Translations under genes and position numbers: made by a program
Shown here: positions 4,590 through 29,344 of the stretch, piece by piece
How the letters are laid out: every line of letters starts with the position of its first letter
Numbering within the stretch: the stretch's first letter is position 1
The notes under the pieces: generated by a model
The model's input: the letters and a program-made list of their open reading frames with translations, nothing else
Told to the model about the DNA's origin: nothing
Databases searched by the model: none
IMG/VR virus record: IMGVR_UViG_3300038416_000304
Span: 1-38,614 of that record
DNA from: a virus
DNA length: 38,614 nt
Strand: one strand, 5' to 3'

Positions 4590-5306
4590 ATGAAATTAAA
4601 AGTAAACGAAATTTATGGACCTGTTAAGCAGGGAGAAGGCAAATCCTCAGGACTAGAAGTTCTCTTCCTAAGACTATCAGGATGTAATCTAGCTTGTTCT
4701 TGGTGTGATACCCCTTATACGTGGAATTGGCAAGGCACCAAATTTGTTCATCCAGAAAAGTATGATCCTATGAAAGAAATTGTTTTTATGGATATCGACG
4801 AGATCAAGGCTGAATTAGATAAGCTTAATACTAAAGCTGTAGTAATCTCTGGAGGAGAACCCCTACTCCAACAGAAGCCTCTTTTCCCTTTAATAGAGGC
4901 TCTTAAATTAAATGATTATTGGGTAGAGATTGAAACAAATGGTACAATAGTTCCCGACCCCGAATTTCTTGATTTAGTAGATCAGATCAATTGCAGCCCT
5001 AAGTTATCTAATTCAGGCCCAGATAATCGACCTACGATGCGTGAGAGACCTGAAGCATTAACCGCTTTAGCCTCCAGTTCTAAAGTATCTTTTAAATGGG
5101 TAGTTACGTCAGATAAGGATTTAGAGGAAATAGAAACGCTTATCTCTAAATATGGTATGAAAGAGAATTACTTAATGCCTGAAGGTAAGACTCGAGTTGA
5201 GCAGTTAGCTCGACAGGACAAGGTTAAAAAGCTTTGTGAAGAAAAAGGATTCAAGTTTAGCCCCCGACTACATGTATTAGAGAATGACGTTAAAAGGCGG
5301 ATATAA
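4590..5306 (+). CDS. queE: 7-carboxy-7-deazaguanine synthase QueE (radical SAM)
   Basis: QueE rearranges 6-carboxy-tetrahydropterin to 7-carboxy-7-deazaguanine, the step before QueC. The 238-residue protein starts at the ATG at 4590; an upstream in-frame ATG at 4524 would add 22 residues that do not fit the family. The N-terminus has the family opening (VNEIYGPVKQGEG), then the iron-sulfur cluster motif CNLACSWC with Cys32, Cys36 and Cys39 (Cx3Cx2C), and a SGGEPLLQ segment for SAM binding. It ends by overlapping the M50 protease start (ATAATGA). Confidence 0.95.
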   Translation: MKLKVNEIYGPVKQGEGKSSGLEVLFLRLSGCNLACSWCDTPYTWNWQGTKFVHPEKYDPMKEIVFMDIDEIKAELDKLNTKAVVISGGEPLLQQKPLFPLIEALKLNDYWVEIETNGTIVPDPEFLDLVDQINCSPKLSNSGPDNRPTMRERPEALTALASSSKVSFKWVVTSDKDLEEIETLISKYGMKENYLMPEGKTRVEQLARQDKVKKLCEEKGFKFSPRLHVLENDVKRRI

Positions 5307-6103
5307 TGACACTTCTTCTTAATGCAGGATATCATTTATTAGTGTATCTTTTTATTTTAGCTGTAGTAATATTTATTCACGAGATGGGTCATTACTTAGC
5401 TTGTAAGAAGTTAGGTATAGAAGTAGAAAGTTTTGCCTTAGGATTTGGTCCTGTATTATATAGTTTTAATTATTGGAACACTGAATTTTCTCTTAGAGCC
5501 ATTCCTTTAGGAGGCTTTATCAAACCTGCCGGAATTGATAAGAGTCCTTCTGAATCTAGTTCTGATGAATATTTTGGTAAAGCGTGGTATAAACGATTAC
5601 TGGTAGCCTATGCAGGACCTTTAATGAATTTTGTTTTAGCGTTTGTTATCTTTGTAGGATTAGTATTTATTAAGGATTCACGACCGCAGACGTTAGCTAA
5701 CACATCTACAAATATTTCTCATAGCGTTACGCTGAGCTCCAGGATATGCTGGTATCAGATCTCACAGACGTATCTTATTATATCTTCTAAACTTGGACAA
5801 CATCAAAATCCAGGACTAATGGGACCTATAGGTATTTTTCAAGCTGTATCTCAAGCAGCATCTAGCTGGGTTGAAATCTTTTCAATGATGGCCGCAATTT
5901 CCATAGCTATAGGCTTGTTCAATATTCTACCCATCCCTCTACTAGACGGAGGATTCGCAGTATTATTTCTGTGGGAAGGACTCACAGGAAAATTTCCTTC
6001 AAAGACAGTTGTTTTTGTTTGGCAGGTATTAGGAATAGCTTTTCTAGGATCGATTCTTTTACTAGCCACAGTCGGAGATCTAGGCAGACTTTTACATCCG
6101 TAA
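5306..6103 (+). CDS. M50-family intramembrane metalloprotease (site-2 protease-like)
   Basis: Site-2 proteases such as RseP and SpoIVFB cut transmembrane substrates inside the membrane, often freeing a sigma factor. This 265-residue protein has the HExxH zinc motif HEMGH at 25-29 inside the first membrane helix and the third-ligand motif NILPIPLLDGG at 206-216 (Asp214). About four hydrophobic segments are visible: ~10-30, ~95-120, ~185-215 and ~232-255. RseP has ~450 residues with PDZ domains; here the segment between the active-site helices is short and shows no PDZ domain. It starts at the last base of queE. A membrane protease inside a replication/modification cluster is unusual. The partner substrate is unknown; an HtrA-like protease is encoded at 28.6 kb. 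Confidence 0.9.
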   Translation: MTLLLNAGYHLLVYLFILAVVIFIHEMGHYLACKKLGIEVESFALGFGPVLYSFNYWNTEFSLRAIPLGGFIKPAGIDKSPSESSSDEYFGKAWYKRLLVAYAGPLMNFVLAFVIFVGLVFIKDSRPQTLANTSTNISHSVTLSSRICWYQISQTYLIISSKLGQHQNPGLMGPIGIFQAVSQAASSWVEIFSMMAAISIAIGLFNILPIPLLDGGFAVLFLWEGLTGKFPSKTVVFVWQVLGIAFLGSILLLATVGDLGRLLHP

Positions 6104-6127
6104 CCCCTCCTAAAGAGATCCACCTTT

Positions 6128-6139
6128 TGTATTATATAG
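6128..6139 (+). promoter_or_regulatory. TGTATTATATAG box before the Rad50 N-half
   Basis: TGTATTATATAG fills the last 12 bases before the GTG at 6140, within the 36-base gap after the M50 gene. It resembles an extended -10 site. No -35 and no Shine-Dalgarno sequence is visible, so the mRNA may be leaderless. Confidence 0.3.
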
Positions 6140-7111
6140 GTGGTTACTATAAAATCTCTTCGCCTGCAAAACTTTCAGGCTCATAAAGATAATACTATAG
6201 TCTTTGACGACTACTTCAATTGTGTTATTGGAGCAACCAGATCAGGTAAGTCATCTATGGTACGCGCTCTTAACTTTCTAATATACAATGTATGGCATAG
6301 TTCTTATGTAAGGCATGGGTGTACCGAGGTAGTAATCACCGCGACTTTGTCAAATGGATTCACTATTATTAGGATCAAAGGCGATAAAATTAATCAGATA
6401 GATGTAAGAGATTCTCAAGGTAAGGTTAAAACGTACGATAGCTTTGGTACCAACTTACCTAAAGAAGTATGCGAAGTACTAGGTATCCACCCACTTCAGA
6501 TAGATGAAGATGAATTCATTACGTCTAACGTAGTGGATCAAGATGAGCCCATGTTTCTTTTAAAAGAAAGTGGGCCTACTAAAACTAAGATTCTCGCACG
6601 CCTCGCGGGACTACACTGGATAGATTTCGCTCTAAAAGATCTTAACAAAGATAGGCGGCGACTATCTAGCGAAACAGACAGTGTTAAGTCGTCTAATTTT
6701 GAGCTTAATCAGAAATTATCTAAGCTTCCTGATCTTACAGAGGCTAGGACAAAGATAGTTCAAGTACGCACAAGGTACGAGAGCTTACGTGAGCTAGATA
6801 CATACTATAACACAGGATTAGCTCTTAAAGGAGATATTGTTTCTTGGAAGAAGCAATATTTTGAATTTAAGAAACTTAAAGACCTTAACTTTAACAATCT
6901 GATTAAACACGCGACAACAGCTCAAGATCTATATCAAGGGTATCATAAGTTGAAGGATTTGTCGTATCGATTAGAGAATATATCTGACTCCACTAAAAAT
7001 TTAGCCTCTGTTAGAATAACTATCCAGAGAGATCGAATAGAGTTGGAACATCTACTTGAAGAAGCTAGGATAGCTGCACCAATATGCCCTACGTGTAAGA
7101 GAGAATTATGA
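6140..7111 (+). CDS. N-terminal half of a split Rad50/SbcC ATPase, ending at the zinc hook
   Basis: Rad50/SbcC is an ABC ATPase that works with the Mre11/SbcD nuclease on DNA ends. This 323-residue protein has the family N-terminus (VTIKSLRLQNFQAHKD), Walker A GATRSGKS at 31-38, a short coiled coil from about 170 to 310, and ends four residues after CPTC (Cys316, Cys319), the zinc-hook CxxC. It has no ABC signature, Walker B or returning coiled coil. Those occur in a separate protein at 9368-10009. A GTG start is chosen because it gives the exact family N-terminus. It overlaps the SbcD-like gene by 4 bases (ATGA). Confidence 0.85.
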   Translation: MVTIKSLRLQNFQAHKDNTIVFDDYFNCVIGATRSGKSSMVRALNFLIYNVWHSSYVRHGCTEVVITATLSNGFTIIRIKGDKINQIDVRDSQGKVKTYDSFGTNLPKEVCEVLGIHPLQIDEDEFITSNVVDQDEPMFLLKESGPTKTKILARLAGLHWIDFALKDLNKDRRRLSSETDSVKSSNFELNQKLSKLPDLTEARTKIVQVRTRYESLRELDTYYNTGLALKGDIVSWKKQYFEFKKLKDLNFNNLIKHATTAQDLYQGYHKLKDLSYRLENISDSTKNLASVRITIQRDRIELEHLLEEARIAAPICPTCKREL

Positions 7112-8040
7112 AATCTTTAGTTCTAGGAGATTGCCATTTCTGTGATAGAACACCTCTTCGTAGAACAGATGACTTTTTACAAGCGCAGTTTACTAAATTA
7201 GCTAATTTAGAGAATTTAATTATAGCTGAAAAGGATATTGACTCTCTTTTTTTATTAGGAGATGTATTTGATATTCCCAAGCCTTCTTTAGAATTAGTGA
7301 ATAAAGTAATGGAACACCTAGACCGTATTAACAAGCTTTTACCACTAGGCATATACTCTATCGTAGGTAATCACGACGTACATGGTAGAGTAGAGAGCAT
7401 ACAAGAGACAGCGTTAGGAACGTTATATGCTTCCAGATTAGTAAAGCAATTAAAGGGTAGACAAGTAATTAAAAATATTTCTTTTTTAGGGATAGACTAT
7501 TTAGTTAATCACACCTCTGAAATATATAAAGGGAATAATCAAATTATTTTAACTCATAATATGTTACTTCCAGCACCAGCAATTTTTAAACATGTCCTCG
7601 CTAAAGAAGTAGAATTGCTAGCCCCTAATACAACAATCTTTGCAGGGCATTATCATACCCCTTTTCAAGTAGAGTTTTCTAACAACTGTAGGATAATCAA
7701 TCCGGGGGTATTAGTTCGCACTGATATATCTGAAAGAAAGATAGTCCCTAGCGTTGTTAAATTTGAAGCTTCTATGAATACTAATTTACAAGTACATTAT
7801 ACTCGAATTCCTTTAGAACAAGATAACGGGAACACAGTATTTAATTTAGAAGATTATAAAGAAGAGAAAACACAAAAGTTAGATCTAGAAAAGTTTATTA
7901 ATGGGCTCAAACAAAGCCAATTTGAATCTCAAGATATTGAGAAATTAATTCAAGAAGTAGGTAAGTTATCTAATGTTAATGAAACAATTTTACAAGAAGC
8001 TTTAAAAAGAATTAAAACAGCTCGCATGATAGTGCATTAA
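7108..8040 (+). CDS. sbcD: SbcD/Mre11-like exonuclease subunit
   Basis: A calcineurin-like metallophosphoesterase expected to be the nuclease partner of the split Rad50. Metal-site motifs appear in order: GDCH (Asp8, His10), GDVFD at 51-55, GNHD at 87-90, a histidine in LTHNM, and GHYHTP. The phosphoesterase core spans about residues 1-215; the rest is a helical, charged region that probably holds the Rad50-binding part. Length (310 aa) is close to phage gp47-type and short SbcD proteins. It lies between the two Rad50 halves and overlaps the N-half by four bases. Confidence 0.9.
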   Translation: MKSLVLGDCHFCDRTPLRRTDDFLQAQFTKLANLENLIIAEKDIDSLFLLGDVFDIPKPSLELVNKVMEHLDRINKLLPLGIYSIVGNHDVHGRVESIQETALGTLYASRLVKQLKGRQVIKNISFLGIDYLVNHTSEIYKGNNQIILTHNMLLPAPAIFKHVLAKEVELLAPNTTIFAGHYHTPFQVEFSNNCRIINPGVLVRTDISERKIVPSVVKFEASMNTNLQVHYTRIPLEQDNGNTVFNLEDYKEEKTQKLDLEKFINGLKQSQFESQDIEKLIQEVGKLSNVNETILQEALKRIKTARMIVH

Positions 8041-8054
8041 TAGATTCTTTCTTC

Positions 8055-8066
8055 TGTATTTATAAT
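8055..8066 (+). promoter_or_regulatory. TGTATTTATAAT box before the 8067 gene
   Basis: TGTATTTATAAT directly abuts the ATG at 8067, in a 26-base gap after sbcD. TATAAT (8061-8066) is a perfect -10 hexamer. No -35 is seen. Any transcript would start at or inside the start codon. Confidence 0.3.
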
Positions 8067-8357
8067 ATGAGTTCGCAAATAACACATCTGGTAATTCAAA
8101 GAAAATTCAACGAGACTATTAAACATATGGTTACATTAGCAAAGACGCCGGTTTTTAACTTACAAGTAGAAATTTTAACTCTACTAGGACGTTCCCCTAT
8201 GCGCTTTAGAGACCTTAAGTCTCGCCTTAGGATAACTGATGACAACGCTTTAGATGCAACTTTACAGACTTTGCGTAAGAATAACCAAATTTATTATACT
8301 TCAAAGGTAGGATGGTCTATTGGAAGTAGTCGTAAGAAGAGTAACAAACCTAGATAA
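8067..8357 (+). CDS. Small winged-helix DNA-binding protein, 96 aa
   Basis: The middle and C-terminal part reads as a winged helix: helix (VEILTLLGRSP), turn and second helix (RFRDLKSRLRI), recognition helix (NALDATLQTLRKN), then a beta wing (QIYYTSKVGWSIG) and a basic tail. This resembles HxlR/MarR-like regulators by layout, not by a diagnostic motif. It is probably a phage regulator or accessory DNA-binding protein. It is preceded by a TATAAT box and no Shine-Dalgarno sequence. Confidence 0.6.
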   Translation: MSSQITHLVIQRKFNETIKHMVTLAKTPVFNLQVEILTLLGRSPMRFRDLKSRLRITDDNALDATLQTLRKNNQIYYTSKVGWSIGSSRKKSNKPR

Positions 8358-8358
8358 T

Positions 8359-8538
8359 ATGGATCTCTCTAAGGAGAAATTCTTAGAGTGCGTAGATGGA
8401 TGTACTCATACATCCACGAGTGAAGCTTGTACACAATTTTGTATGCATAATATACACTTAAGTAAGTGGTGTATTCGATGTAGAGATATTTGTGGAGTAG
8501 TTGTAGTTAGACCTAACGATATTCAGGAGAGATCATGA
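8359..8538 (+). CDS. Small Cys-rich protein, 59 aa
   Basis: ATG at 8359 is one base after the previous stop and is preferred over a TTG 39 bases earlier that would lie inside the winged-helix gene. Eight cysteines are arranged as pairs (ECVDGCTH, CTQFCMH, WCIRCRDICG), indicating one or two zinc sites. The stop overlaps the queD start by four bases (ATGA). It resembles the small Cys-rich proteins at 4342 and 11168 in style but lacks their CC-x-LN signature. Confidence 0.6.
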   Translation: MDLSKEKFLECVDGCTHTSTSEACTQFCMHNIHLSKWCIRCRDICGVVVVRPNDIQERS

Positions 8539-9008
8539 TTGTATCAAAGACATTTAAGTTTGAGGCCGGTCACAGATTAGCATTTGGATATCCAGGTAAT
8601 TGCCAACACGCACACGGACATTCCTATGTAGTTACAGTAGTAATGGAAGCTAATACTGACGATCTTGATAAGTTTGGCTTTGTAAAAGATTTTAACGATT
8701 TCAAATCTCTTAAGCAGTGGATTGACGATAAATGGGATCACTCTTTTTTGGTCGCGGAGAAAGACACCCCTATGCTTACCTTTTTAAGAGAAAATAAGCA
8801 GAGACACTATATTTTTGACAATAATCCTACCGCAGAAAATATTGCCCGAGAACTATTTATTATTGCGGAAGAACTTTTAAACGATGGCGCAGCTTCTGTT
8901 ACGGAAGTAAGAGTCAATGAAACGGCTACATCTGAAGCTGTCTATAGATCTACTTTGGTTCAAGATGCTTTAGACGTTAAGAGACTACTAGCCACAGCTA
9001 AGGCTTAA
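8535..9008 (+). CDS. queD: 6-carboxy-5,6,7,8-tetrahydropterin synthase QueD
   Basis: QueD turns dihydroneopterin triphosphate into 6-carboxy-tetrahydropterin, the second step to preQ0. The 157-residue product has the zinc ligands His13, His27 and His29 (HAHGHSY segment) and the catalytic Cys23 four residues before His27. The second half keeps PTAENIARELF and the glutamate-containing strand EVRVNETATSEAVYR typical of the PTPS/QueD family. A GGAGAG site sits inside the preceding gene. It shares its last base with the next start. It is slightly longer than E. coli QueD because of an insertion around residues 80-95. Confidence 0.95.
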   Translation: MIVSKTFKFEAGHRLAFGYPGNCQHAHGHSYVVTVVMEANTDDLDKFGFVKDFNDFKSLKQWIDDKWDHSFLVAEKDTPMLTFLRENKQRHYIFDNNPTAENIARELFIIAEELLNDGAASVTEVRVNETATSEAVYRSTLVQDALDVKRLLATAKA

Positions 9009-9268
9009 TGAAGACAAATATAGAAGATATTCGAAACAGGTTAGACGACCTTAAAAAGAAAGAGGCCGTGGTAGGAACTAGAGAAGAGTATCTAGCTGAA
9101 GAAAAGAATAAGCTTCTTTTAGAAGTTAATAATTTGTTTGAATCTCTTAAAGCTACAGGATATTTTACACCTGAAGAATTAACTTCTCAAAATCTAGAGG
9201 GGGTAATGTCTAAGTTATATAAGATCATTGAAGATGAACTTAAACTAAGCGAATTGCCTACTTTATGA
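9008..9268 (+). CDS. Hypothetical coiled-coil protein, 86 aa
   Basis: It starts on the last base of queD. The sequence is nearly all charged helix with heptad-like leucines (IRNRLDDLKKKEAVV, NKLLLEVNNLFESL) and an acidic end. No enzymatic motif is seen. Its stop overlaps the start of the small membrane peptide that follows (ATGA). It lies just upstream of the Rad50 C-half, so it might assist that complex, but this is only position. Confidence 0.55.
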   Translation: MKTNIEDIRNRLDDLKKKEAVVGTREEYLAEEKNKLLLEVNNLFESLKATGYFTPEELTSQNLEGVMSKLYKIIEDELKLSELPTL

Positions 9269-9402
9269 TAGTAATAGATGCTGTCACAGATTGGCTACAA
9301 CAGAATGCTGCAGGAGTGATAGTAGGACTTTTACTATGGGTTATTTTTCTAGGAACTATTGCTTATCATGTCAAACAACAAAATAATCTCCCTAGGAAGT
9401 AA
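9265..9402 (+). CDS. 45-residue single-pass membrane peptide
   Basis: ATG at 9265 overlaps the preceding TGA and opens a 45-codon frame to TAA at 9400-9402. A hydrophobic helix covers about residues 17-34 (GVIVGLLLWVIFLGTIAY), flanked by an amphipathic N-terminus and a polar C-terminus with KQQNNLPRK. The last 35 bases overlap the Rad50 C-half in another frame. A holin-like or membrane-accessory role is possible but unsupported. Confidence 0.45.
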   Translation: MIVIDAVTDWLQQNAAGVIVGLLLWVIFLGTIAYHVKQQNNLPRK

Positions 9403-10009
9403 ATTAGTTAGTTTAGAACAGCGCCTACAATATTTAGAAGGCCAAAAAGAAACTCTTACTACCCAGTTAGAAGAAAATTCCCTTAGATTAAAAGAAATCA
9501 CTTCTGAAGAAGATACTTTTCTTAAAGCCTCCAGCTTATTACAATCTGTCTCAGAAAAAACCCGCGAACTGAGTATAACAAAGATCGAAGGTATTGTTAC
9601 TAGTGCTCTGCAGGAAATTCTAGATAACCCCTCTATTCAATTTGTGATTTTATTTGAGAACAAGCGCAACGCTGTTAGCGTAGAATTTAAGATTAGAGAC
9701 AATTTGATAGGTACTGATATGGATGTTATTAACGGGGAAGCAGGAGGTCTAAAGAACGTAATTTCTACTATCCTAAGGCTAGTCATTATAGATCTTCACT
9801 CACCAAAGATAGAAGGACCAATTATCTTAGACGAGGTAGGGGCCAATATTAGCATAGAGTATCAACCACGATTTGGTAAGTTTTTAAAAGATTATAGTCG
9901 AATGATGGGTCGTCAAATTATTCTTGTTTCACATTCCACGTCAGTTATGATAGAAGCAGACAAAGAAATTAGACTAAGTCAAACAAACGGAGTTTCTAAG
10001 GTAGTCTAA
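9368..10009 (+). CDS. C-terminal half of a split Rad50/SbcC ATPase
   Basis: This 213-residue protein carries what the 6140-7111 protein lacks: a short coiled coil (about residues 8-75), an ABC signature-like segment (INGEAGGLKN, 121-130), Walker B with catalytic acid (GPIILDEVGANIS, 150-162) and the H-loop (ILVSHS, 185-190). There is no Walker A and no CxxC. Rad50 needs Walker A from one end and signature/Walker B from the other, so the two products should assemble into one ATPase head. ATG at 9368 is preferred over TTG at 9359; it lies inside the membrane-peptide gene. Confidence 0.8.
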   Translation: MSNNKIISLGSKLVSLEQRLQYLEGQKETLTTQLEENSLRLKEITSEEDTFLKASSLLQSVSEKTRELSITKIEGIVTSALQEILDNPSIQFVILFENKRNAVSVEFKIRDNLIGTDMDVINGEAGGLKNVISTILRLVIIDLHSPKIEGPIILDEVGANISIEYQPRFGKFLKDYSRMMGRQIILVSHSTSVMIEADKEIRLSQTNGVSKVV

Positions 10010-10404: not shown

Positions 10405-10406
10405 AA

Positions 10407-11161: not shown

Positions 11162-11167
11162 TAAGTA

Positions 11168-11335: not shown

Positions 11336-11338
11336 AGC

Positions 11339-13790: not shown

Positions 13791-14219
13791 ATGAGCACCT
13801 CCCTATTAGTTAAGCTAAATAGTCCTGACGCAAAAGTACCTTTTAAAGCCCATCCAGATGAAGACGCAGGATTTGATTTAGTAGGTACCCATGACGTAAC
13901 AGTTAAAGCTTTTGAATCTGCTATCGTTGACATTAAGTTAAGTTTAGGTATTCCTAAAGGTTATTACGGCCAATTAATGACCAGATCATCTATGGGTAAA
14001 GCTGGATTACGTATTCACCCAGGAGTAATTGATCAAGGATACAGAGGAAACATTACCGTAATAGTTGTTAATTTAACTAGCAGAGATTATGAAATTCATA
14101 CGGGTGACAAGGTAGCCCAGCTATTAATTCTACCTGTACCTAAAATAAAAGTAGAAGTTGTGACTGAACTACCTGAATCTAGTAGAGGTGAAGGTGGCTT
14201 CGGCAGTAGTGGCAGATAA
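13791..14219 (+). CDS. dut: dUTPase (deoxyuridine triphosphatase)
   Basis: Trimeric dUTPase that hydrolyses dUTP to dUMP, keeping uracil out of DNA and feeding dTMP synthesis. All five motifs are present in 142 residues: DAGFDL, TRSSMGKAG, PGVIDQGYRGNI, GDKVAQLLI and the C-terminal GEGGFGSSGR that closes over the site. It starts one base after the UDG-polymerase stop, so the uracil-related functions are adjacent. Confidence 0.96.
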   Translation: MSTSLLVKLNSPDAKVPFKAHPDEDAGFDLVGTHDVTVKAFESAIVDIKLSLGIPKGYYGQLMTRSSMGKAGLRIHPGVIDQGYRGNITVIVVNLTSRDYEIHTGDKVAQLLILPVPKIKVEVVTELPESSRGEGGFGSSGR

Positions 14220-14235
14220 ATATATGGAGATTCTA

Positions 14236-15159
14236 ATGGAAACAGTTAATACGACTGAGACGCGATTGGAAACAATTTCTAGGGCTGGAGGATTTAAGAA
14301 AGCAGCTTTGCCCGATGTACATATTACCCCTGATGAAAGAGGGATTGAGATTAATCGTGTTGGAGTAGAAGGTGTAGCTGTTCCAATTGTCTTAAATCGC
14401 AAAGGCGGAGGAGAACCTGTAAAAACTTTAGCCAAGGTTAATATGTTTGGATCTTTAGAGAAGCGCTTGAAAGGGACCAATATGAGTCGCTTCGCGCAGT
14501 TGTTTGTTACGGAGGATAATCACTCAGCACTATCTGGCAATGCCTTCCCAGCTCTTTTAGAGAAGTTAGCTACCAGTTTAGATACAAAAGATGTATACAT
14601 CTCTGCAAGCTTTGACTACTGGATGAATAAGACTACTCCTGTAAGTAAGATTTCAGCTCCTTCAGGATACTCTTGCAGATTCATTGGACAGCTTGTATCA
14701 GGTAAACTTAAATTTATTACTGAAGTAACAGTTCCAGTCGCCTCATATTGCCCTTGCAGTAAGGAGATGTGTCTTACTGATAAAAAGACGGGAGTAGGTT
14801 TAGGAGCACATGCCCAGCGAGGGATGGTCACATTACAGGTACGTACAAATCCTCCAACTCCAGGACTATGGCTAGAAGATATGATTCGCATTGCAGAGAC
14901 TTCAGGATCAGCAGAATTATACCCTATTCTTAAGAGAGAAGATGAGAAGTATGTTACTATAGCGGGATACGATAATCCTAAGTTTGTAGAAGATATTTCT
15001 AGAGATGTAGGTAATAAGATTCAGCTACTACCTGAAGCGGTTTGGTATAAAGTTAGAACCCGCAATTTGGAATCAATTCACCCTTATGATGTAACATCTT
15101 ACGTAGGTCAGAGTAAGCAGGGTGATGAGTGGGTTGTAGATACTCGCAGCTTTTATTAA
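14236..15159 (+). CDS. folE2: GTP cyclohydrolase IB (FolE2-like)
   Basis: Converts GTP to 7,8-dihydroneopterin triphosphate, the entry step of the preQ0 route. From the ATG at 14236 the product is 307 residues. Family features: PDVHI near 26-30, GTNMSRF at 80-86, the catalytic region CPCSKEM with Cys172 and Cys174, and GAHAQRGMV at 190-198. GGAG six bases upstream supports this start; an ATG at 14224 is possible and would add four residues. I considered QueF, which shares the T-fold superfamily, but the CPCSKE and AHxQR motifs fit FolE2. Confidence 0.9.
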   Translation: METVNTTETRLETISRAGGFKKAALPDVHITPDERGIEINRVGVEGVAVPIVLNRKGGGEPVKTLAKVNMFGSLEKRLKGTNMSRFAQLFVTEDNHSALSGNAFPALLEKLATSLDTKDVYISASFDYWMNKTTPVSKISAPSGYSCRFIGQLVSGKLKFITEVTVPVASYCPCSKEMCLTDKKTGVGLGAHAQRGMVTLQVRTNPPTPGLWLEDMIRIAETSGSAELYPILKREDEKYVTIAGYDNPKFVEDISRDVGNKIQLLPEAVWYKVRTRNLESIHPYDVTSYVGQSKQGDEWVVDTRSFY

Positions 15160-21421: not shown

Positions 21422-24400
21422 ATGAGTAATTGGATTATAGATTTATTTGTAGGAAAGAAACCAGATCCTAAAGAGATTTTTGCTGATAGGGACTCAATTA
21501 TCCCTAAGTATCTCAGAAAGGCTGCCCTTACTGAGATGGAAACTGCTGAGGAAGATCTAGCTAATGATTGGCATTCTCGAGTTCACAATGTCTCTGATTT
21601 TGTGCTCGCTGAACAGATCACGGAGCTAGAACTAGCAGGTAAGGGTGCTCCCGAGAAGTATAACGCTCATTGGCAAGAAGTAATGGGTGATATACGTAAG
21701 AATAGGACTAAAGCTGAAGAGCGTCTATTAAAGTTGGTTCCCCGCCATAGCTTACTAGACGTCAAAGAGTTCTTTAATCGTATTAAGAAGCAGAATGATA
21801 AATTTGAAGTAGCTAAGGACCGAGCCATTAACAAGAGAGCTGACCTATCTTTTACTCCTACTGACAAACTAGTAGCGAAAGGTACCTCATATAAGGCCTC
21901 CGTGTTAGCCTCAGATGTTGATTATAATATTTATGCCGTTAAGATGGACTTTGCTGTGAACTACTATGGAGGAGGAGATGCTCATGAAACGTTTGAAAAA
22001 GTTAGCGATGGACTTGAAAAAGAAGCTGCAAAAACATATGAGCCAGTTAGCCGCAATGTGCTCGAAACCAAAGGCGCCCAAGAGAGCGCGTGGCAAGAGG
22101 TAATATCTAGCCCCTTACTTAAGGATATTCAGATCCGTGCAGAGTATCTTCTTTTAAAGACTCCTGGTCTCGAACTACGCGTTCAAGCTCTTGAAGAGCC
22201 TTTGTTTCATGAAGGGGAAGTAGTAAGTGACGCTACAGGCAACGAAAACGCTGAAGTTTTACAGGTAGATAAAGAAAATGGGATGTACGTAATGAAGATC
22301 CCTGGTTTTCCTACCCCTGTTAGAAAGACGTTTGAGAAGGCTCACGCAGGATTTCACGCGGGAAAAAAGCCTTATTTACCAGGAATTCCTCAAAGTGAAC
22401 CTAAAGAAATTCCTGGACCTGAATCTTTACCTAAGTCTAAAACCGAATACATTTCAGAAGACGAAAGGGCTAAGCTAGTAAAGATGCGAAAAGAGATTGA
22501 GGAAACTAAAGGTGAACTAGCTGGAGCTCAAGAGTACTCTAGACATTGGCAAGATCTAACTAGAAAGTTACAAGATTTAGAGATGAGACAGAAGGAGATG
22601 TCCGAAAATAAGATTCTTGAACCGGGCATGCCTGAAAATAGACCAGTTACTCCTGCGGAAGAAGCTTTTCATACCAAGGAAAAAGAAGAAGCTGCTCCTG
22701 TAGCGATTGTCCCTCACCCTTCTAAGAAGTTAGAACCTGAAGGATGGACAGGTTGGCCCAATACTGTACAGGTACTAAAGCCTACTAAACATAAGAAGAC
22801 TAACCAGGGCTTCGAGCTATCTCTAGTAGCTAATTCGCTGACGTTATCTCTACCTAATGGTAGTTTCTTGACGTCAGTTCTTTCAAACGAGCAGGAAGCT
22901 GAAACTGAGTTTGATAAGGCTGACAGTTTAGATTCACTATCGTTACTATTTCCTTTAGCTGCCTTAGAAGGCTTTGAGAAGAAAGCTAACAAGATGACAC
23001 CAGAAGCTGAAGCTTTTATTTCTAAGGAAATTGAAAAGAATATAAAAGACCATAAGATGGATCAAGCTCGTGCTGAAGCTGCTGCTTATGAGGCAGCTCG
23101 TAGAAAAGGATTTGAGGTGCCTTCTAAGAAGACTGCGGAAGATATGGGAACAGGTGGACCTAATATGGATGGTTCTAATGTAATGGTTGATCCTCAGCGC
23201 GGAGGAGTTAATCAGATGGGTGAAGGGGTAGAAGAAAATCCCGAGCCTTTTAAAAAGAAATCTGACGATGAAGCTGTAGAAGAGCAGATGCTTTTAGAGA
23301 TGGATGAACTCTTAGATGCCGCGGGCGGCGCTGAAGCAGTTATTCAGAAAGCCATGGCTGAAGGTGCTAAAACTCGTGAAGAAATTGCTCGTAAAGCCGT
23401 AATGGACTTAATAGGTGATACTCATGAGATTGATTTTGATATGCAGATGAGTGCGAGAGGTCCAAATAGTTCAGCTCAGGGTGAACCTGAATTTAGTCAT
23501 TACAATAAGAAGTTTTCTGCTGCTGAAGTGGTTCCCTTTATGGAAAAAGCTTTAGATGAGTTTCTTCCAGAAAAAGAAACTAAGTCAGAACAAGCTTTTG
23601 ATCCTTCTGCAGGAATTCCTTCAGTATTACCTCACGCTTCTCTTGAAGACCAGACTTTTGTAGTGGGAGAGAATGTTATACTCAACTCTACTGTTGGTGC
23701 CTTAGGAGAAGGTACTGAAGTAAGAGTTACTGGAGTTGTAGGTGCAAGTTTAGCCTTTGAAGCACTACATGATCCTCGAATTGTAGGAATTACTAAGTTT
23801 GCTAAAGTAGATAAACAGAAACCTCTTGAAAAGTACGAGTGGGATAATGATGGGATAAAGGTTGCCTTCGAATTAGGTGACCATGTTAAGGTATCAGCGG
23901 CTACCTTTCTTAATGGTAAAGCCTTAAAAGGTAGAGAAGGTACCGTACGTGAGAAGGTAATCTTTAGTAGTCCCGATGCAGAAGTAACTATGTTCTACTT
24001 AGTTGAATTTGACGGCGCCGAATGCACTACACTACCAGGAGATTGTCTAAAGAGAGGTTCAACTAAAACAGCCTCTTTTTTAGGCCCTAAGGAGGCTACC
24101 CTCGAAGTAGTCTCCATAATCGTCAAGCGTCCTAACGGTTGGTTCGTTAAGACTCATGATGGTAAGAGAAACTTAGGAGGTCCTTATCATAGTAGAGAAC
24201 GGGCAGAAAAACGCTTACAGCAGGTAGAGATGTTTAAACATATGAATGCATCTCTTAATGTAGTTTCGTTTGTTGCTCATATACCGGGACATAAAAATTC
24301 AAAAGGAGAAGCTGCTCCTTGGGTAGTTAAACAGCACGACACTGGAAAGATTCTATCTTCTCATGCTACCGAAGCTGAAGCTAAAGCTCATTTACAGCAA

Positions 24401-26029
24401 ATGGAAATGCATAAACATATGGCTTCTGTTGATAAACAGCCTTGGCTTGTTCCAGAAGGTACTCCTGCTCAACCTGAATCAGCTGAATTTGCTGCTAATA
24501 GAGCTCGATTCTTAAGAGATAAAGAAATTGAAGAACTTAAGAAACAGAATGAAGAAGCTGGAAAACATTTATCTAGAACTAAAGAGCACATGAAGGAACC
24601 TTCAATAAGCGACCTTCATGCAAAGACAGCTGTATTAAAACCTAATTTAGATGTAGCTCAGGATTTTTTAGATTCATTTAAAATCCCTCCTACAGTAGTG
24701 TCTGACATAATGATTCAAGAATTCTTACAGAAAAGTAATCTACATGCTTCAAAAAATGATCTAAATGAGATCTACAAAATTCTACAATCTAGCGGGGTAG
24801 AAGTTCGCATTAGCTTGCCTAAGGAAGAAGTTACTGCACCTACTGCTCAGCCTGCACCAGAACCTGTTCCTAAGAAGAAGAGCTCTAATACTTTAGCAGA
24901 TATCCAATTAGCTTTAAATGAATTTCATGCAAGTGATGATTACAAAGCAATGGTTGCTGGAACTATGCCTCAGAGAGTAGAGGGAGCTAAAGAAGATCCT
25001 ACAGACACTGAAGAAGCTAAGGGACTTAAAGTAGGTTCTAAAGTACAGTACGTCGTTAAGAGTGAAGACGAACTGCCTGGAATTAAACCTGGAACAGCTA
25101 TTACGGGTAAGATAATTTTGATGCCTATTCAGCACCCTGAAAAAGATATGAGCTCAGGACAGCCAAAAGAACAAGGAGCTTCCCCTATTGTTACAGCTAC
25201 GGTAATGTGGGACAAAGAAGATCTAGGCACCTCTAGAGGTCTTCTCCCTGAAGAACTTACAAAGATAGCTGTGAAGTATAAAGCTGAAGTAACTGATGCT
25301 ACTGGGAATAAAACTGTTGTAGAAAAAGAGATGGTCAATGATATGGGGGATAAGGTGTTACAAGATAACCCAGATGGATCGACCACCGAATTTAAAAAGG
25401 CTGAACTAGTTGTAGAGGCAAAAGGTGAGAACGCTAAGATTCGCGATCTCAAAAAGCGCCTTGAAAAAGAAAACAAGCCTTCTGAAATCAGTGCTCTTAT
25501 TAATGCTATAGATGCTTTGAGTGGGTACGTTACTAAAGGTAAGGAAGCCCGTGAGAAACGCCGAAAGGATAAAGCTGATAAAGCTGCAGTAACCCCTGAA
25601 ACAGCCAAGGCTGACAAAGCCGAAGTACTTGCTGAAGTAGATGACCAAAGCGCTGAAGGTATGGAGAATGGTAGAGGTGTTGTGGAGGTAGATCCTGAGC
25701 CAATGGGTGACAAAGTTCCTCCACTCAAAGTAGAAAATACAGCTTCTAATGCAATCCCCCATAGTACAAATTGTCCTGCATACTATAGCAACAAAGCTAG
25801 ATGTGAGTGTGAAAGATTAAAAACTCATCCCTGTACTAATTGTGATGGAGCGCCCGACGGTGGACACACTGGTGATGAGAAATGCTTCTATCATGAAGAC
25901 GAAGTTAAGGCTTCTGAAGAGAAAGAGTGTTGCACTCCCAGAGAACCTGGATTTCATAATGATGAATGTCCTGAACATATAGAGTGGCTAAAGCAACAAA
26001 AAGCATTAGAAATTGGACCTAAGAGTTAA
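21422..26029 (+). CDS. Giant mosaic protein with SH3-like modules and a C-terminal Cys cluster, 1535 aa
   Basis: One uninterrupted frame. I do not recognise the whole protein. Visible parts: N-terminal helical region (1-150); SH3-like barrels near 260-300, 742-795, 816-880 and 1202-1275; a coiled coil around 350-400; a helical module near 525-570 (MTPEAEAFISKEI to RRKGFEVPSKK) that resembles small modules scattered through phage structural proteins; a duplicated GW/PW...KHM module at 892-941 and 943-1000; Lys/Glu-rich linkers; and a C-terminal cluster (about 1447-1525) with roughly a dozen Cys plus His. FSAAEV at 698-703 is a weak match to the LSYKE-type motif of the neighbours. Size, linkers and modular build suggest a virion-associated or injected protein rather than an enzyme, but no structural gene is nearby to confirm it. 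Confidence 0.8.
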   Translation: MSNWIIDLFVGKKPDPKEIFADRDSIIPKYLRKAALTEMETAEEDLANDWHSRVHNVSDFVLAEQITELELAGKGAPEKYNAHWQEVMGDIRKNRTKAEERLLKLVPRHSLLDVKEFFNRIKKQNDKFEVAKDRAINKRADLSFTPTDKLVAKGTSYKASVLASDVDYNIYAVKMDFAVNYYGGGDAHETFEKVSDGLEKEAAKTYEPVSRNVLETKGAQESAWQEVISSPLLKDIQIRAEYLLLKTPGLELRVQALEEPLFHEGEVVSDATGNENAEVLQVDKENGMYVMKIPGFPTPVRKTFEKAHAGFHAGKKPYLPGIPQSEPKEIPGPESLPKSKTEYISEDERAKLVKMRKEIEETKGELAGAQEYSRHWQDLTRKLQDLEMRQKEMSENKILEPGMPENRPVTPAEEAFHTKEKEEAAPVAIVPHPSKKLEPEGWTGWPNTVQVLKPTKHKKTNQGFELSLVANSLTLSLPNGSFLTSVLSNEQEAETEFDKADSLDSLSLLFPLAALEGFEKKANKMTPEAEAFISKEIEKNIKDHKMDQARAEAAAYEAARRKGFEVPSKKTAEDMGTGGPNMDGSNVMVDPQRGGVNQMGEGVEENPEPFKKKSDDEAVEEQMLLEMDELLDAAGGAEAVIQKAMAEGAKTREEIARKAVMDLIGDTHEIDFDMQMSARGPNSSAQGEPEFSHYNKKFSAAEVVPFMEKALDEFLPEKETKSEQAFDPSAGIPSVLPHASLEDQTFVVGENVILNSTVGALGEGTEVRVTGVVGASLAFEALHDPRIVGITKFAKVDKQKPLEKYEWDNDGIKVAFELGDHVKVSAATFLNGKALKGREGTVREKVIFSSPDAEVTMFYLVEFDGAECTTLPGDCLKRGSTKTASFLGPKEATLEVVSIIVKRPNGWFVKTHDGKRNLGGPYHSRERAEKRLQQVEMFKHMNASLNVVSFVAHIPGHKNSKGEAAPWVVKQHDTGKILSSHATEAEAKAHLQQMEMHKHMASVDKQPWLVPEGTPAQPESAEFAANRARFLRDKEIEELKKQNEEAGKHLSRTKEHMKEPSISDLHAKTAVLKPNLDVAQDFLDSFKIPPTVVSDIMIQEFLQKSNLHASKNDLNEIYKILQSSGVEVRISLPKEEVTAPTAQPAPEPVPKKKSSNTLADIQLALNEFHASDDYKAMVAGTMPQRVEGAKEDPTDTEEAKGLKVGSKVQYVVKSEDELPGIKPGTAITGKIILMPIQHPEKDMSSGQPKEQGASPIVTATVMWDKEDLGTSRGLLPEELTKIAVKYKAEVTDATGNKTVVEKEMVNDMGDKVLQDNPDGSTTEFKKAELVVEAKGENAKIRDLKKRLEKENKPSEISALINAIDALSGYVTKGKEAREKRRKDKADKAAVTPETAKADKAEVLAEVDDQSAEGMENGRGVVEVDPEPMGDKVPPLKVENTASNAIPHSTNCPAYYSNKARCECERLKTHPCTNCDGAPDGGHTGDEKCFYHEDEVKASEEKECCTPREPGFHNDECPEHIEWLKQQKALEIGPKS
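24095..24421 (+). repeat. Tandem duplicated module in the 1535-aa protein
   Basis: Two adjacent copies: 24095-24244 (residues 892-941) and 24248-24421 (residues 943-1000). Shared features are a leading A-[ST]-L-[EN]-V-V-S strand, then GWFVKTHDGK in copy 1 and PWVVKQHDTGK in copy 2, then RAEKRLQQVEMFKHM against EAKAHLQQMEMHKHM. The DNA has diverged, so the duplication is old. Confidence 0.85.
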
Positions 26030-26034
26030 TTCTA

Positions 26035-26892
26035 ATGAATAAGACTTCTCAAAAGGTTTCAGTTCTCAATAGAGAATACGAAGTTATACCTCGCTACGAT
26101 GAAAATTTATCTCTCTTAGGTTACCAAATAAGAGATGACGTAGGCACAGATGTATTCTTTTTAGAGACGACTAAAGGGCTTACGCAACCTGTTTTAGAAA
26201 ACTCTATCTACGAAAATATACTTAAATCGCATGCAGCCATTCATCCTGATCATGTTCCAGGAGGAATGCTTAATCTTTTTAAAGATATTACCAATAGATT
26301 AGATTCTTTTACGTCTATAGTTCCTTTTGAAGACTATTCTAGGATGTGTAGTTTTGTAGCTCAGGGATTTGGCTTAAGTATAGAAGAAGCCAGAGTAGCT
26401 GTATCTAATGTTATGAATGAACTAGGTCTATCTGCTGGCCCTTCCGCACAAGAAGAAGAGTGGCTTGGTCAGAAAAGGACCACTCCTTTCGGTATGCAAG
26501 ATCCTGGCTTCTTAGCTCAGCCTCTCTCTTATAGAGAGGTTAAACAACTCAAAACAGCTCGTACATTCGCTGAAGGTGATAAAGTTGAATTGAGATACGA
26601 AGACACTCGTGATTTAGCTACAAAAGGACATGTATTAAAAGTCAACAAGGATTCTACTTGTGATGTAATGTCTAGTAATGGAGAAGTGTACCAGAATATA
26701 GACCCTAGTAGACTTCATGAACCTTCTGCAGAGGGTGGTAGAATAGGGGGCGAAAATTATGGATATTTTGATAGCCCTCGTAATCTAGCTATGACTCCTA
26801 ATCTCAATGATAATCCAAGTGAGTACGCAGACGCAAAGGGACAAGAAGGCAAAACAGTATCGGATGCCCCTAACCCTTCCCTGAACGAATAA
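26035..26892 (+). CDS. Hypothetical protein with LSYRE motif and SH3-like domain, 285 aa
   Basis: It starts six bases after the 1535-aa gene. Residues 1-145 form an unknown domain with mixed strands and helices. The motif L164-S-Y-R-E168 separates it from an SH3-like barrel at ~175-230 (FAEGDKVELRYED to PSRLHEP), and the last 55 residues are a disordered Gly/Asn/Pro-rich tail. The SH3-like part resembles those in the 1535-aa and sigma-like proteins. It probably belongs with the two giant proteins; function unknown. Confidence 0.65.
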   Translation: MNKTSQKVSVLNREYEVIPRYDENLSLLGYQIRDDVGTDVFFLETTKGLTQPVLENSIYENILKSHAAIHPDHVPGGMLNLFKDITNRLDSFTSIVPFEDYSRMCSFVAQGFGLSIEEARVAVSNVMNELGLSAGPSAQEEEWLGQKRTTPFGMQDPGFLAQPLSYREVKQLKTARTFAEGDKVELRYEDTRDLATKGHVLKVNKDSTCDVMSSNGEVYQNIDPSRLHEPSAEGGRIGGENYGYFDSPRNLAMTPNLNDNPSEYADAKGQEGKTVSDAPNPSLNE

Positions 26893-26900
26893 TACGTCTC

Positions 26901-26929
26901 GTTACAAAAAGTCGTAAGCAATGTATAAT
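26901..26929 (+). promoter_or_regulatory. Sigma-70-like promoter GTTACA-N17-TATAAT
   Basis: In the 76-base gap after the 26035 gene, GTTACA (26901-26906) and a perfect TATAAT (26924-26929) are separated by 17 bases, with TG ahead of the -10 as in extended sites. The next ATG of a long gene is 40 bases downstream, leaving a normal leader. This is the best-formed bacterial-type promoter I see. Confidence 0.55.
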
Positions 26930-26968
26930 ACGATATGAGTAAAGATCAGAGAGGCTGGAGATCAAGTA

Positions 26969-27811
26969 ATGAGCACACCTAAAAGTTCTACCGCTTCATC
27001 TAAAGTTAGAAAACATTTAGCGTTGTTTGATGTACACGTCCCACATAATATTAAATTAAATAGTACAATTGATTTTATTAAAGATTATCGCCCTGATGAG
27101 TTTATCATCGGAGGTGACTTTCTTAATCTTGAATGGGCAAGTCATTGGAACGAAAAGGAATTCAAAACGATAGGTCTTGAAAAACTTTCAGGGATGTTAA
27201 AGCAAGAGTTAAATGCCGGTAAAGATGTGTTAAGACAACTAGTCGCGGCTCTACCTGAGGATTGTAATAAATATTATATCCCTGGTAACCATGAAGACTG
27301 GCTCTACTGGGCATGCTTAACATACCCTCAATTAGCAGGCGGAATTAGTTTAGGCGTAGAGCAGATGACTTTTAAAAGTGACCTAGCAGATATTCGTAAG
27401 CACGTGCTAGCGGATTTATTAAGAGAGCATCTTAAGACAGATGAACTTAATATGAAGGTACTTCCCTTCGGTAAAGAGTTAGTCCTAGGGAAGCTAACAT
27501 ATATACATGGCCATCAGGTAGGAACGCTTACTTCAATGCAGAAAAAGTTTCCTGCACGTAATATGGTATGTGGACATCACCACACACACCAAGTAACTAC
27601 TACCCATAATTCAGGCGACGAGAAGAAAGCTAACCAGTACGTAATGGTACCTTGTATGTGTAAGTTATCTCCTGGTTATCTTACAGATGGTAGTACTAGA
27701 TGGTTGAATGGCTTTTGGACAGCAGAAGTACTTTCCAATGGTTTATTTGATGGGCGTGTTATTAAAGTTTTAGATGGAAAAGTAATCTTTAACGGCAAGG
27801 TGTACGAATAA
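26969..27811 (+). CDS. Calcineurin-like metallophosphoesterase
   Basis: The 280-residue product has the metal-site series: DVHVPH with Asp21 and His23, IIGGDF with Asp50, GNHEDW, IHGHQVG and GHHHTHQ. Family members hydrolyse phosphoesters (nucleases, phosphatases, cyclic-nucleotide phosphodiesterases); the substrate is not readable here. It is distinct from the SbcD-like protein at 7108, with no C-terminal Rad50-binding part. It has its own promoter-like site upstream and no SD stronger than GGCTGGAG. Confidence 0.85.
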   Translation: MSTPKSSTASSKVRKHLALFDVHVPHNIKLNSTIDFIKDYRPDEFIIGGDFLNLEWASHWNEKEFKTIGLEKLSGMLKQELNAGKDVLRQLVAALPEDCNKYYIPGNHEDWLYWACLTYPQLAGGISLGVEQMTFKSDLADIRKHVLADLLREHLKTDELNMKVLPFGKELVLGKLTYIHGHQVGTLTSMQKKFPARNMVCGHHHTHQVTTTHNSGDEKKANQYVMVPCMCKLSPGYLTDGSTRWLNGFWTAEVLSNGLFDGRVIKVLDGKVIFNGKVYE

Positions 27812-27813
27812 TC

Positions 27814-27826
27814 TTGTATTAATATA
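27814..27826 (+). promoter_or_regulatory. TTGTATTAATATA promoter-like box
   Basis: An extended -10-like sequence in the short gap after the phosphoesterase gene, 29-41 bases upstream of the small zinc-ribbon gene, whose AAGGAG ribosome site follows. No -35 is visible. A terminator after that gene makes it a possible single-gene unit. Confidence 0.3.
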
Positions 27827-27854
27827 GACGTAATCAATTTATAAGGAGAAAAGT

Positions 27855-28034
27855 ATGGCTGAAAAGAACGGATTAAAATATCATTGTGCCAATTGTCGCG
27901 AGGATAAGTCAGGCGATCTTGATCTTAAGCAGATCAAGCGCACAGCAGTTGGAGAGGGTAGAACTCTAATTTTCTGCGAGGCATGTAATTGCTTCCTAAA
28001 GCTAGAAGAAACCAACGCCGCTGCCAAGCAGTAA
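27855..28034 (+). CDS. Small zinc-ribbon protein, 59 aa, with strong ribosome site
   Basis: ATG at 27855 follows ATAAGGAGAA, one of the best Shine-Dalgarno sequences in the window. Two C-x2-C pairs (HCANCRED and FCEACNCF) about 29 residues apart form a zinc ribbon. The frame ends TAA at 28032-28034 and a terminator hairpin follows 36 bases later. A promoter-like box, strong ribosome site and own terminator suggest it is transcribed separately and well expressed. Function unknown. Confidence 0.7.
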   Translation: MAEKNGLKYHCANCREDKSGDLDLKQIKRTAVGEGRTLIFCEACNCFLKLEETNAAAKQ

Positions 28035-28070
28035 GTAAACCTTAAAAGTCAATTTTTAATCACCAAGTCG

Positions 28071-28102
28071 AGACCTATTGATATACATCGATAGGTCTTT
28101 TT
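28071..28102 (+). terminator. Rho-independent terminator
   Basis: AGACCTAT pairs perfectly with ATAGGTCT (28091-28098), the stem extends inward through a T-G pair and GAT/ATC around the loop ATAC, and a run of five T follows (28098-28102). Flanking AAGTC and GACTT could pair as an outer stem. This is the clearest terminator in the window and ends the zinc-ribbon unit. Confidence 0.85.
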
Positions 28103-28146
28103 GACTTGTATGAAGATGTTAAATTTACTTTACTTACGGGGGCCAC

Positions 28147-28374
28147 ATGTTATCGGCCAAGCGTCAAAAATGCCCGTACTGTTTGAAAACGTCCTTCTGC
28201 TACGTGTACCTAGACGAAGTAAATGAAAAGACAGCAATTTTTACTCAGTGTTTTAATCCTAAATGTGCCCAGTATATAGATATTTGGCTTGTACCGCAAA
28301 CTAAAGTACAAGTCTTACTTGATTCATTAATAGGAAGTCTAGAAGGGTTTAGAGAAGAAAAAGAAGGGAAGTAA
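28147..28374 (+). CDS. Small zinc-ribbon protein, 75 aa
   Basis: First gene after the terminator. CPYC at residues ~9-12 and C-x4-C (QCFNPKCAQY) near residues 35-40 form a probable zinc site, followed by a hydrophobic strand and an acidic helix ending KEEKEGK-like. A weak GGGGG precedes the ATG. No family assigned. The next ORF starts directly after its stop. Confidence 0.6.
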   Translation: MLSAKRQKCPYCLKTSFCYVYLDEVNEKTAIFTQCFNPKCAQYIDIWLVPQTKVQVLLDSLIGSLEGFREEKEGK

Positions 28375-28527
28375 ATGAATAAGCGCCAGCGTAAAAAAGC
28401 AGATAAGAAAGAGCTAGCAGCTCGTATTTTATATTTATGGAATTATGAACCAAAAGGTGATGAACCTTGCGACGATTTAACATGTCGCAGTTGCTACGTT
28501 CAAGAGGGCGAATTATTCTATCACTAA
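28375..28527 (+). CDS. Small hypothetical protein, 50 aa
   Basis: The ATG directly follows the preceding TAA. The frame has a very basic N-terminus (MNKRQRKKADKKELAARIL), then a short Cys-containing region (PCDDLTCRSCYV) and ends LFYH before TAA at 28525-28527. Three cysteines could hold a metal. Unknown function. Confidence 0.55.
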   Translation: MNKRQRKKADKKELAARILYLWNYEPKGDEPCDDLTCRSCYVQEGELFYH

Positions 28528-28588
28528 GTACCAAATAAATTAGCTTCCGCGATAGGAACACTAACGAAATTAACTATGTGGGCTAATC

Positions 28589-29344
28589 ATGAAAAGGATT
28601 TTTAAAAAAGTTGTAAGCGTATTACTAGCAGTCGCATTAATGTTTACCATATACGCAAAACTATCTAGCCCTTATTTGATGATTAGTAGGGTAGAAGATG
28701 CTACGGTAGTTCTTAAGATTGTTAAACAAGTAGATGTTAATCTAGGACCTCAATTACCCCCTCTGTCTAAAAATCACAGGCGCAAGCACAAAAAACATTC
28801 ACAACTTAAGATAAATCAAACTTTTCTTTGTGCGGGATATATAGCTGATGATTATGGACATATTGTTACTGCAGGTCATTGTGCTACAGGGGGAAAAGAC
28901 GTAGTATCTATTACAGTATATCTTCATAATGGAAATAAAGGATATCTAGCCAGAGTTATTCTAGTTAAGCCCTTACTGGATATAGCCTTACTACAGGCAC
29001 CTCTTCCAAAAGGATTACCTTACCTTCAATCTAAAGAAGATTATCAGACTCCTGGAACTCACGTCTACGCTATTGGACATCCATTAGCAATACTCTACAG
29101 TGTAAGCGATGGTATTACTTCTAATTATATTGACCAAGAGCATGGTATTTTATTTATCCAATCGTCAGCTCCTATTAACCCGGGTAATAGTGGAGGACCT
29201 TTAGTTGATGATAATGGAGAAGTTGTAGGAGTTTGTAGTTTTGTAGTTATTGCTCCATGGGGAAGCCCTGGCGCAGGCTTAGGATTTTCAGTTCCCTCTC
29301 CTACAATTAACGTCGTGATGAGAGGGCAGTTAAACCATAACTAA
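28589..29344 (+). CDS. Membrane-anchored HtrA/DegS-like trypsin-fold serine protease
   Basis: The 251-residue product has a basic N-terminus and hydrophobic helix at ~9-24 (signal anchor or signal peptide), a His/Lys-rich linker at 60-72, and a chymotrypsin-fold domain with the full triad: His97 in VTAGHC, Asp131 in LLDIALLQ, Ser201 in NPGNSGGPL. The PGNSGGPL context is characteristic of HtrA/Deg proteases. No PDZ domain follows, unlike DegS or DegP. It should act outside the inner membrane. It lies three bases upstream of the 2201-aa gene. It could process phage or host envelope proteins. Confidence 0.9.
   Translation: MKRIFKKVVSVLLAVALMFTIYAKLSSPYLMISRVEDATVVLKIVKQVDVNLGPQLPPLSKNHRRKHKKHSQLKINQTFLCAGYIADDYGHIVTAGHCATGGKDVVSITVYLHNGNKGYLARVILVKPLLDIALLQAPLPKGLPYLQSKEDYQTPGTHVYAIGHPLAILYSVSDGITSNYIDQEHGILFIQSSAPINPGNSGGPLVDDNGEVVGVCSFVVIAPWGSPGAGLGFSVPSPTINVVMRGQLNHN

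Follow-up and report, generated by a model that had tools for sequence, protein, structure and literature searches.

Do phages carry their own equipment for the two-step membrane proteolysis that is known from cells as a signalling device? The question is raised by a virus record of 38.6 kb (IMGVR_UViG_3300038416_000304, positions 1 to 38,614; hereafter the window, i.e., the whole stretch of DNA analysed), which encodes a site-2 protease (S2P) of the M50 family and a serine protease of the HtrA/DegS type. Our preferred answer, held with slightly less than even confidence, is that the two enzymes are a phage-encoded kit for two-step intramembrane proteolysis, the target of which, in related phages, is probably a single-pass membrane protein of the phage itself. 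If true, a phage-owned version, with its PDZ control apparently removed at least twice, would mean that viruses rewire membrane signalling.

Two proteases in one phage

The frame at 5306-6103, the start of which overlaps the final base of the preceding frame (4524-5306), is open and intact and encodes 265 residues. The protein matches Pfam Peptidase_M50 (1.8e-49) and the NCBIfam model of the RIP metalloprotease RseP, TIGR00054 (162.6 bits against a cut-off of 147.55). Both HEMGH and LDGG motifs are present, in agreement with the initial annotation of this frame as an M50 protease.

5306-6103, plus strand: PDZ-less RseP-type site-2 protease (M50), 265 residues (Pfam, NCBIfam and predicted structure)
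5378-5392, plus strand: HEMGH zinc/catalytic motif, residues 25-29 (H25, E26 and H29 invariant in a 21-row alignment)
5675-5722, plus strand: linker, residues ~124-139, at the site of the PDZ domain of a sister phage (alignment and domain scan)
5942-5953, plus strand: LDGG motif, residues 213-216 (L213, D214 and G215 invariant in the 21-row alignment)

Neither a PDZ nor a CBS match was found in this protein by Pfam scan. The predicted structure (mean predicted local distance difference test score, pLDDT, 91.8) matches Aquifex RseP, Escherichia coli RseP and a RasP model with TM-scores by query of 0.82-0.85, and Kangiella RseP with 0.60-0.63; the fold match to SpoIVFB is weaker (0.43). Membrane helix 2 of the model leads through a short linker to helix 137-165, at the place where RseP has its PDZ domains. 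The M50 core and the HExxH and LDG motifs in membrane helices, which characterise group I S2Ps such as RseP, are all present, but the PDZ domain between membrane helices 2 and 3 is missing. Group III S2Ps such as SpoIVFB have no PDZ domain and, according to passages in PMC10202637, have a CBS domain; the window S2P has no CBS match and fits their fold less well. Judged by sequence and model, the window S2P is an RseP-derived variant that has lost its PDZ region.

The second frame, at 28589-29344, is also open and intact and encodes 251 residues. It matches Pfam Trypsin_2 (3.3e-22) as well as the NCBIfam models degP_htrA_DO and DegS, the latter two well under cut-offs that are set for full-length proteins.

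28589-29344, plus strand: PDZ-less HtrA/DegS-type serine protease, 251 residues (Pfam, NCBIfam and predicted structure)
28610-28666, plus strand: N-terminal hydrophobic segment, residues 8-26, signal anchor or signal peptide (hydropathy; helix 2-25 in the model)
28877-28879, plus strand: catalytic His97 (invariant, 12-row alignment)
28979-28981, plus strand: catalytic Asp131 (invariant, 12-row alignment)
29189-29191, plus strand: catalytic Ser201, in PGNSGG (invariant, 12-row alignment)

The enzyme features an HtrA-type trypsin-like domain and a His-Asp-Ser triad, the three residues of which do not vary among the 12 phage proteases aligned. It lacks the C-terminal PDZ domain of HtrA and DegS: no PDZ match was obtained by Pfam scan, and the protein ends at most ~10 residues past the matched protease domain. 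In the model, which is of modest confidence (mean pLDDT 63.6), a linker that is itself poorly modelled connects the N-terminal helix to an HtrA-type domain; the matches are to HtrA2, HtrA1 and DegS, including PDZ-deleted DegS (best E 1.6e-11). Described initially as a membrane-anchored PGNSGG serine protease, the protein retains the protease assignment, the triad and the PGNSGG motif; hydropathy and model agree on a single N-terminal hydrophobic helix, which may be a membrane anchor or a cleaved signal peptide.

The window S2P is found at 100% identity in two other assemblies, which represent the same phage. The serine protease was not found in the whole records of these assemblies; the shared stretch stops before that gene. 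A sister phage, represented by a syntenic contig of 116.7 kb (locus L032, record G010) with an 88% identical DNA polymerase, possesses both proteases, ~27 kb apart. Of 29 gene pairs compared between the window and the sister, only one is less conserved than the serine protease and the S2P, which rank second and third from the bottom (59% identity each). The ratios of nonsynonymous to synonymous substitution rates (~0.15 for the serine protease and ~0.12 for the S2P, with synonymous changes near saturation) indicate that both are under purifying selection in this pair. The sister S2P is longer (341 residues) and carries one PDZ domain (PF00595, 24.3 bits against a cut-off of 23.2). The lack of PDZ domains in both proteases, reported at the outset, thus holds in the window but not in the sister phage, and the PDZ domain has most simply been lost in frame in the window lineage.

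A quick tree of 105 S2Ps (support by the SH-like approximate likelihood ratio test, SH-aLRT) included 27 phage rows, the window among them, two of which (L066 and L075) sit on very long branches; for records outside the tree, the clade was assigned from the length, N-terminal sequence and identity of the protein. The window protein groups with that of the sister (100), and the two then join three Elusimicrobiota RseP proteins (99). A separate clade (100) unites 18 PDZ-less S2Ps from phages, and a third (99) consists of five short S2Ps, likewise from phages. Since the bacterial rows are the best matches listed from one scan, Elusimicrobiota as the S2P donor is a lead, not proof of a host. As the window S2P and the 18-row clade are separate in the tree, PDZ domains have apparently been lost from phage S2Ps at least twice. 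Among the matches listed for named phages (20 of 22 and 15 of 23 records), the annotated S2Ps are called RseP or yaeL and the remainder are unannotated; the records so annotated look like pieces of bacterial chromosomes. For the serine protease, HtrA-like genes in three Elusimicrobia genomes are 32-41% identical to that of the window, so that no donor stands out, and of two viral scans for close relatives one gave none and the other gave the sister phage only.

Gene order in related phages and a membrane partner

A profile scan revealed 55 viral loci with M50 genes. The PDZ-less S2P clade that is separate from the window's is represented by 40 viral records, several of which are near-identical, so that not all are independent. 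Full-length S2Ps of this clade are 266-273 residues long; the frame ends early in L070, and that of L076 is cut by the contig end. None of six phage S2Ps tried belongs to a PHROGs family.

In 28 of the 40 records, a gene for a single-pass membrane protein (~158 residues, with the helix near residue 45; three of the 28 copies are cut by contig ends) lies immediately 5' of the S2P gene. The partner frame overlaps the longest S2P frame by 16-40 bases in all 24 loci measured. Three more of the 40 records carry the partner unlinked, ~20, 21 and 44 kb from the S2P, as determined by profile search. The partner is therefore present in 31 of 40 records of the clade, as opposed to 0 of 42 S2P-negative relatives by DNA polymerase; the S2P-positive records of the same DNA-polymerase search all have it (4/4). 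Much of this contrast is linkage, because a fragment that has lost the S2P would lose its neighbour too. The stronger part consists of the unlinked cases and of five S2P-negative records >100 kb without the partner. Nothing in the phage collection matches the partner at E 0.01, and no anti-sigma match in Pfam was obtained for the 11 members scanned. Net charge is more positive on the N-side in 14 of 22 partner proteins, a weak indicator of topology.

In 12 of the 40 records, the serine protease, the single-pass protein and the S2P follow one another in this order almost without gaps (in one of these, L070, the S2P frame ends early). The serine protease lies ~2.1 kb downstream in 4 further records, and at a great distance in four long ones. 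No Trypsin_2 match was found in the other 20, most of which are fragments shorter than ~55 kb, yet records of 61, 68, 78 and 88 kb are among them. In two further phages with a quite different S2P, a gene ~1.1 kb upstream encodes a trypsin-like protein that has a membrane segment at its N-terminus. The row of three genes gives weight to proteolysis of a phage target. It supports the part of the initial proposal that envisaged a stripped-down phage two-step system acting on a phage membrane regulator; nothing points to host sigma-E, the other part, and our reading does not need it.

The mechanism that we envisage is as follows. Both enzymes made by the window phage would serve regulated intramembrane proteolysis. 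The S2P, the core of which is recognised from sequence and model, would be placed in the inner membrane of the host. Passages in PMC10202637 and PMC7728848 describe how the PDZ tandem of RseP excludes untrimmed RseA, and how E. coli RseP cuts RseA without site-1 cleavage once the PDZ region is disrupted. By analogy with these mutants, an S2P without the PDZ size filter may accept membrane proteins that have not been strictly trimmed beforehand. The serine protease would be exported, probably remain anchored in the membrane, and trim extracytoplasmic domains. Acting together in two cuts, the pair could either eliminate a single-pass membrane protein or activate it. For the relatives, genetic linkage makes the phage membrane protein encoded immediately 5' of the S2P the most likely target or regulator. 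More speculatively, and with considerable doubt, several lineages of uncultured phages may carry a self-contained switch made up of the exported serine protease, the single-pass protein and the PDZ-less S2P, in which a change in the envelope during infection would be sensed and a fragment released into the cytoplasm would serve as a timer or superinfection signal. The three adjacent genes offer a ready system for direct substrate tests in E. coli.

Alternative explanations

Several observations weigh against the two-step pathway. The two window genes are 22 kb apart, as noted initially. Trypsin_2 matches also occur in 9 of 43 S2P-negative records, a control set made up of 42 DNA-polymerase-III relatives and one PhoH relative (the PhoH scan, used as a general control, gave 2 loci). 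Among records of at least 100 kb, the serine protease gene is found in 7 of 7 whose S2P belongs to these clades or to the sister's type and in 4 of 6 that are S2P-negative, a difference that is not significant (p = 0.19); with two giants carrying divergent S2Ps added, the former count becomes 8 of 9. A profile search of the window and sister records gave no homologue of the membrane partner. The window serine protease shares only 15-21% identity with the ten phage proteases aligned other than that of the sister, and the window pairing and that of the relatives may therefore have arisen separately. One S2P clade (7 records, the longest of 78 kb) has neither the partner nor a Trypsin_2 match. 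Finally, the PDZ domain is retained in the S2P of the sister phage.

Because S2P-negative controls carry Trypsin_2 too, we rely on gene order and have dropped co-occurrence as the main argument. Co-occurrence had looked strong at first, with Trypsin_2 in 21 of 45 further S2P-positive records. Within the 40-record S2P clade, 20 of 40 records have Trypsin_2, compared with 9 of 43 S2P-negative records (p = 0.006 by record, the records not being independent), and S2P-positive records are longer (median of 40 vs 29 kb). One of the nine S2P-negative records, G058, may itself be part of an S2P-positive phage, since its protease is identical over 296 residues to that of S2P-positive G031. A lipobox pattern was found in 4 of 6 proteases of the relatives, all six of which look like lipoproteins by eye, and some proteases of S2P-negative records are apparently of the same type, again by eye. 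The serine protease seems to be the more widespread gene, and the S2P and its partner the accessory part. Co-occurrence across relatives, proposed initially as a check, is thus seen in the sister, which keeps the pair, and in the 12 records with the genes in a row, but not in the Trypsin_2-bearing controls or in the 7-record clade. Relatives with only one of the two genes had been named at the outset as counter-evidence, and these cases count in part against the initial proposal.

The same observations fit a less probable but serious alternative, namely that the proteases share a genome and no pathway. The S2P would then clear signal-peptide remnants, small membrane proteins or host toxins, and the serine protease would act on envelope proteins, with receptors or competing phages as examples of targets. 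The distance of 22 kb in the window, the controls with Trypsin_2 and without S2P, and the S2P clade without Trypsin_2 are all consistent with separate jobs, and passages in PMC10470546 describe the degradation by E. coli RseP of small membrane proteins, including the toxin HokB. Separate jobs do not explain, however, why both proteases and a membrane protein stand in a row in 12 records, or why protease and S2P are close together in two further phage groups.

It is unlikely, though conceivable, that the relatives' single-pass protein inhibits or scaffolds the S2P instead of serving as its substrate, and that the serine protease removes it, as in the control of SpoIVFB. Such an arrangement would parallel SpoIVB, SpoIVFA and SpoIVFB, and passages in PMC10202637 describe serine proteases that relieve the inhibition of a PDZ-less S2P. 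The position of the partner directly 5' of the S2P in 28 records would suit a regulator of this kind. Against this, the S2P is of the RseP type (TM-score by query of 0.82-0.85 for the best RseP vs 0.43 for SpoIVFB), and the partner is unlinked in three records.

Somewhat more improbable is the proposal that the pair mimics PDZ-deleted DegS and RseP, cuts a host anti-sigma factor and frees a host extracytoplasmic function (ECF) sigma factor. The serine-protease model matches PDZ-deleted DegS among others, RseP is deregulated when its PDZ region is disrupted (passages in PMC10202637 and PMC7728848), and the S2P, which branches with Elusimicrobiota RseP, may fit a host membrane pathway. Yet no anti-sigma factor, RseA or sigma-E homologue was seen in the window, where anti-sigma families were not scanned for every gene. 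The sigma-like phage genes claimed initially were not substantiated: sigma-70 matches were sub-threshold in two of three proteins tried and absent in the third. The PDZ domain is kept in the sister S2P, the relatives supply a phage-encoded membrane partner instead, and no phage precedent was found in the portions of the literature covered. A hydropathy scan of the window for conserved single-pass membrane proteins yielded a single peptide, a weak candidate substrate.

9265-9402, plus strand: 45-residue single-pass membrane peptide, weak candidate substrate (hydropathy; 65% identical in the sister)

Its charges suggest an N-out/C-in orientation, charge being a weak guide to topology. This would be the wrong orientation for RseP-type substrates.

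That the row is a lysis module, with the single-pass protein as inner-membrane spanin and the exported protease as part of envelope disruption, is very improbable: weak matches to the Rz-like spanin family in 6 of 11 partner proteins (best 4e-5) and the lipoprotein look of several relatives' proteases speak for it, but the partner has ~40 residues ahead of its membrane segment, which spanins are not known to have. In addition, the loci read have genes for DNA polymerase III and envelope proteins near the S2P, and inspection by eye revealed neither an endolysin nor a holin among them.

Neighbouring genes and known systems

The serine protease gene of the window ends 2 bases before that of a 2201-residue fused protein (29347-35952), which combines DNA-ligase C-terminal, LigD primase-polymerase, SLT transglycosylase and 2H-phosphoesterase domains and has a match just under threshold to Acb1, which acts against CBASS (cyclic oligonucleotide-based antiphage signalling system). 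The sister counterpart is 954 residues long. Polyprotein processing by the serine protease was considered and dropped: a SLSYKE-like motif matches three times in the 2201-residue protein and not once in the sister counterpart. Elsewhere in the window, the frames at 210-893, 4524-5306, 8535-9008 and 14188-15159 are presumably QueC, QueE, QueD and FolE-type genes of 7-deazaguanine (preQ0) synthesis, named by eye, which suggests that the phage DNA is modified.

Among the relatives, the loci L046-L063 and L076 contain, around the S2P, many different proteins with a common N-terminal tag. MKITK or VKITK, as in MKITKxQLRxxIxEE, is found in 61 of 71 members of one neighbour cluster (22 loci), and 30 frames of the group begin with or near MKKL(L/M)TEWR. 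In appearance, it resembles a tag for capsid targeting or similar sorting. In L004, L010, L042, L055 and their relatives, a conserved block near the serine protease includes a lipoprotein-like protein with MopE and VWA domains, along with proteins of ~150 and ~94 residues, each with an N-terminal hydrophobic segment. A probably secreted protein of ~140 residues is encoded near the S2P in two clades (11 loci; for instance, L014:8778-9296, L042:6326-6751 and L067:8775-9188); the one tried (L042) has no Pfam match. At L082:5340-8663, and partly in L086, genes for a ClpP-like protease, a trypsin-like protease with a membrane segment, Fic-like and deformylase-like proteins and an S2P are clustered; names other than trypsin and S2P were assigned by eye, in L082 only.

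No such system was found in the portions covered of the literature on phage-encoded intramembrane proteases, RseP or M50 proteins in phages, and phages acting on RseA. The covered part of PMC3974807 concerns host MucA, and the letters 'phage' are absent from the main text of a 2023 S2P review. In this literature, the components are known, and no report of their combination in phages was found. The nearest case is that of a phage linked to Patescibacteria, in which passages in PMC12993620 report a viral M50 peptidase gene as an auxiliary gene. The likeness consists in an M50 gene on a viral contig; the main text is without the terms serine protease, RseP and site-2, and its passages mention neither PDZ loss nor a partner.

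Two cellular systems invite comparison. SpoIVFA and SpoIVFB genes adjoin. The SpoIVB-SpoIVFA-SpoIVFB system of Bacillus subtilis, as described in the passages covered, is similar in that a serine protease, a membrane regulator and a PDZ-less S2P are combined, and differs in that the phage S2P is RseP-like and has no CBS match. The DegS-RseA-RseP system, which governs sigma-E in E. coli, differs in that both window proteases are phage-encoded and without PDZ domains, no RseA or sigma-E homologue accompanies them as far as seen, and the membrane protein of the relatives has no anti-sigma match in Pfam among the members scanned. It is alike in that a probably anchored HtrA-type protease is paired with an RseP-type S2P, to which the relatives add a single-pass membrane protein.

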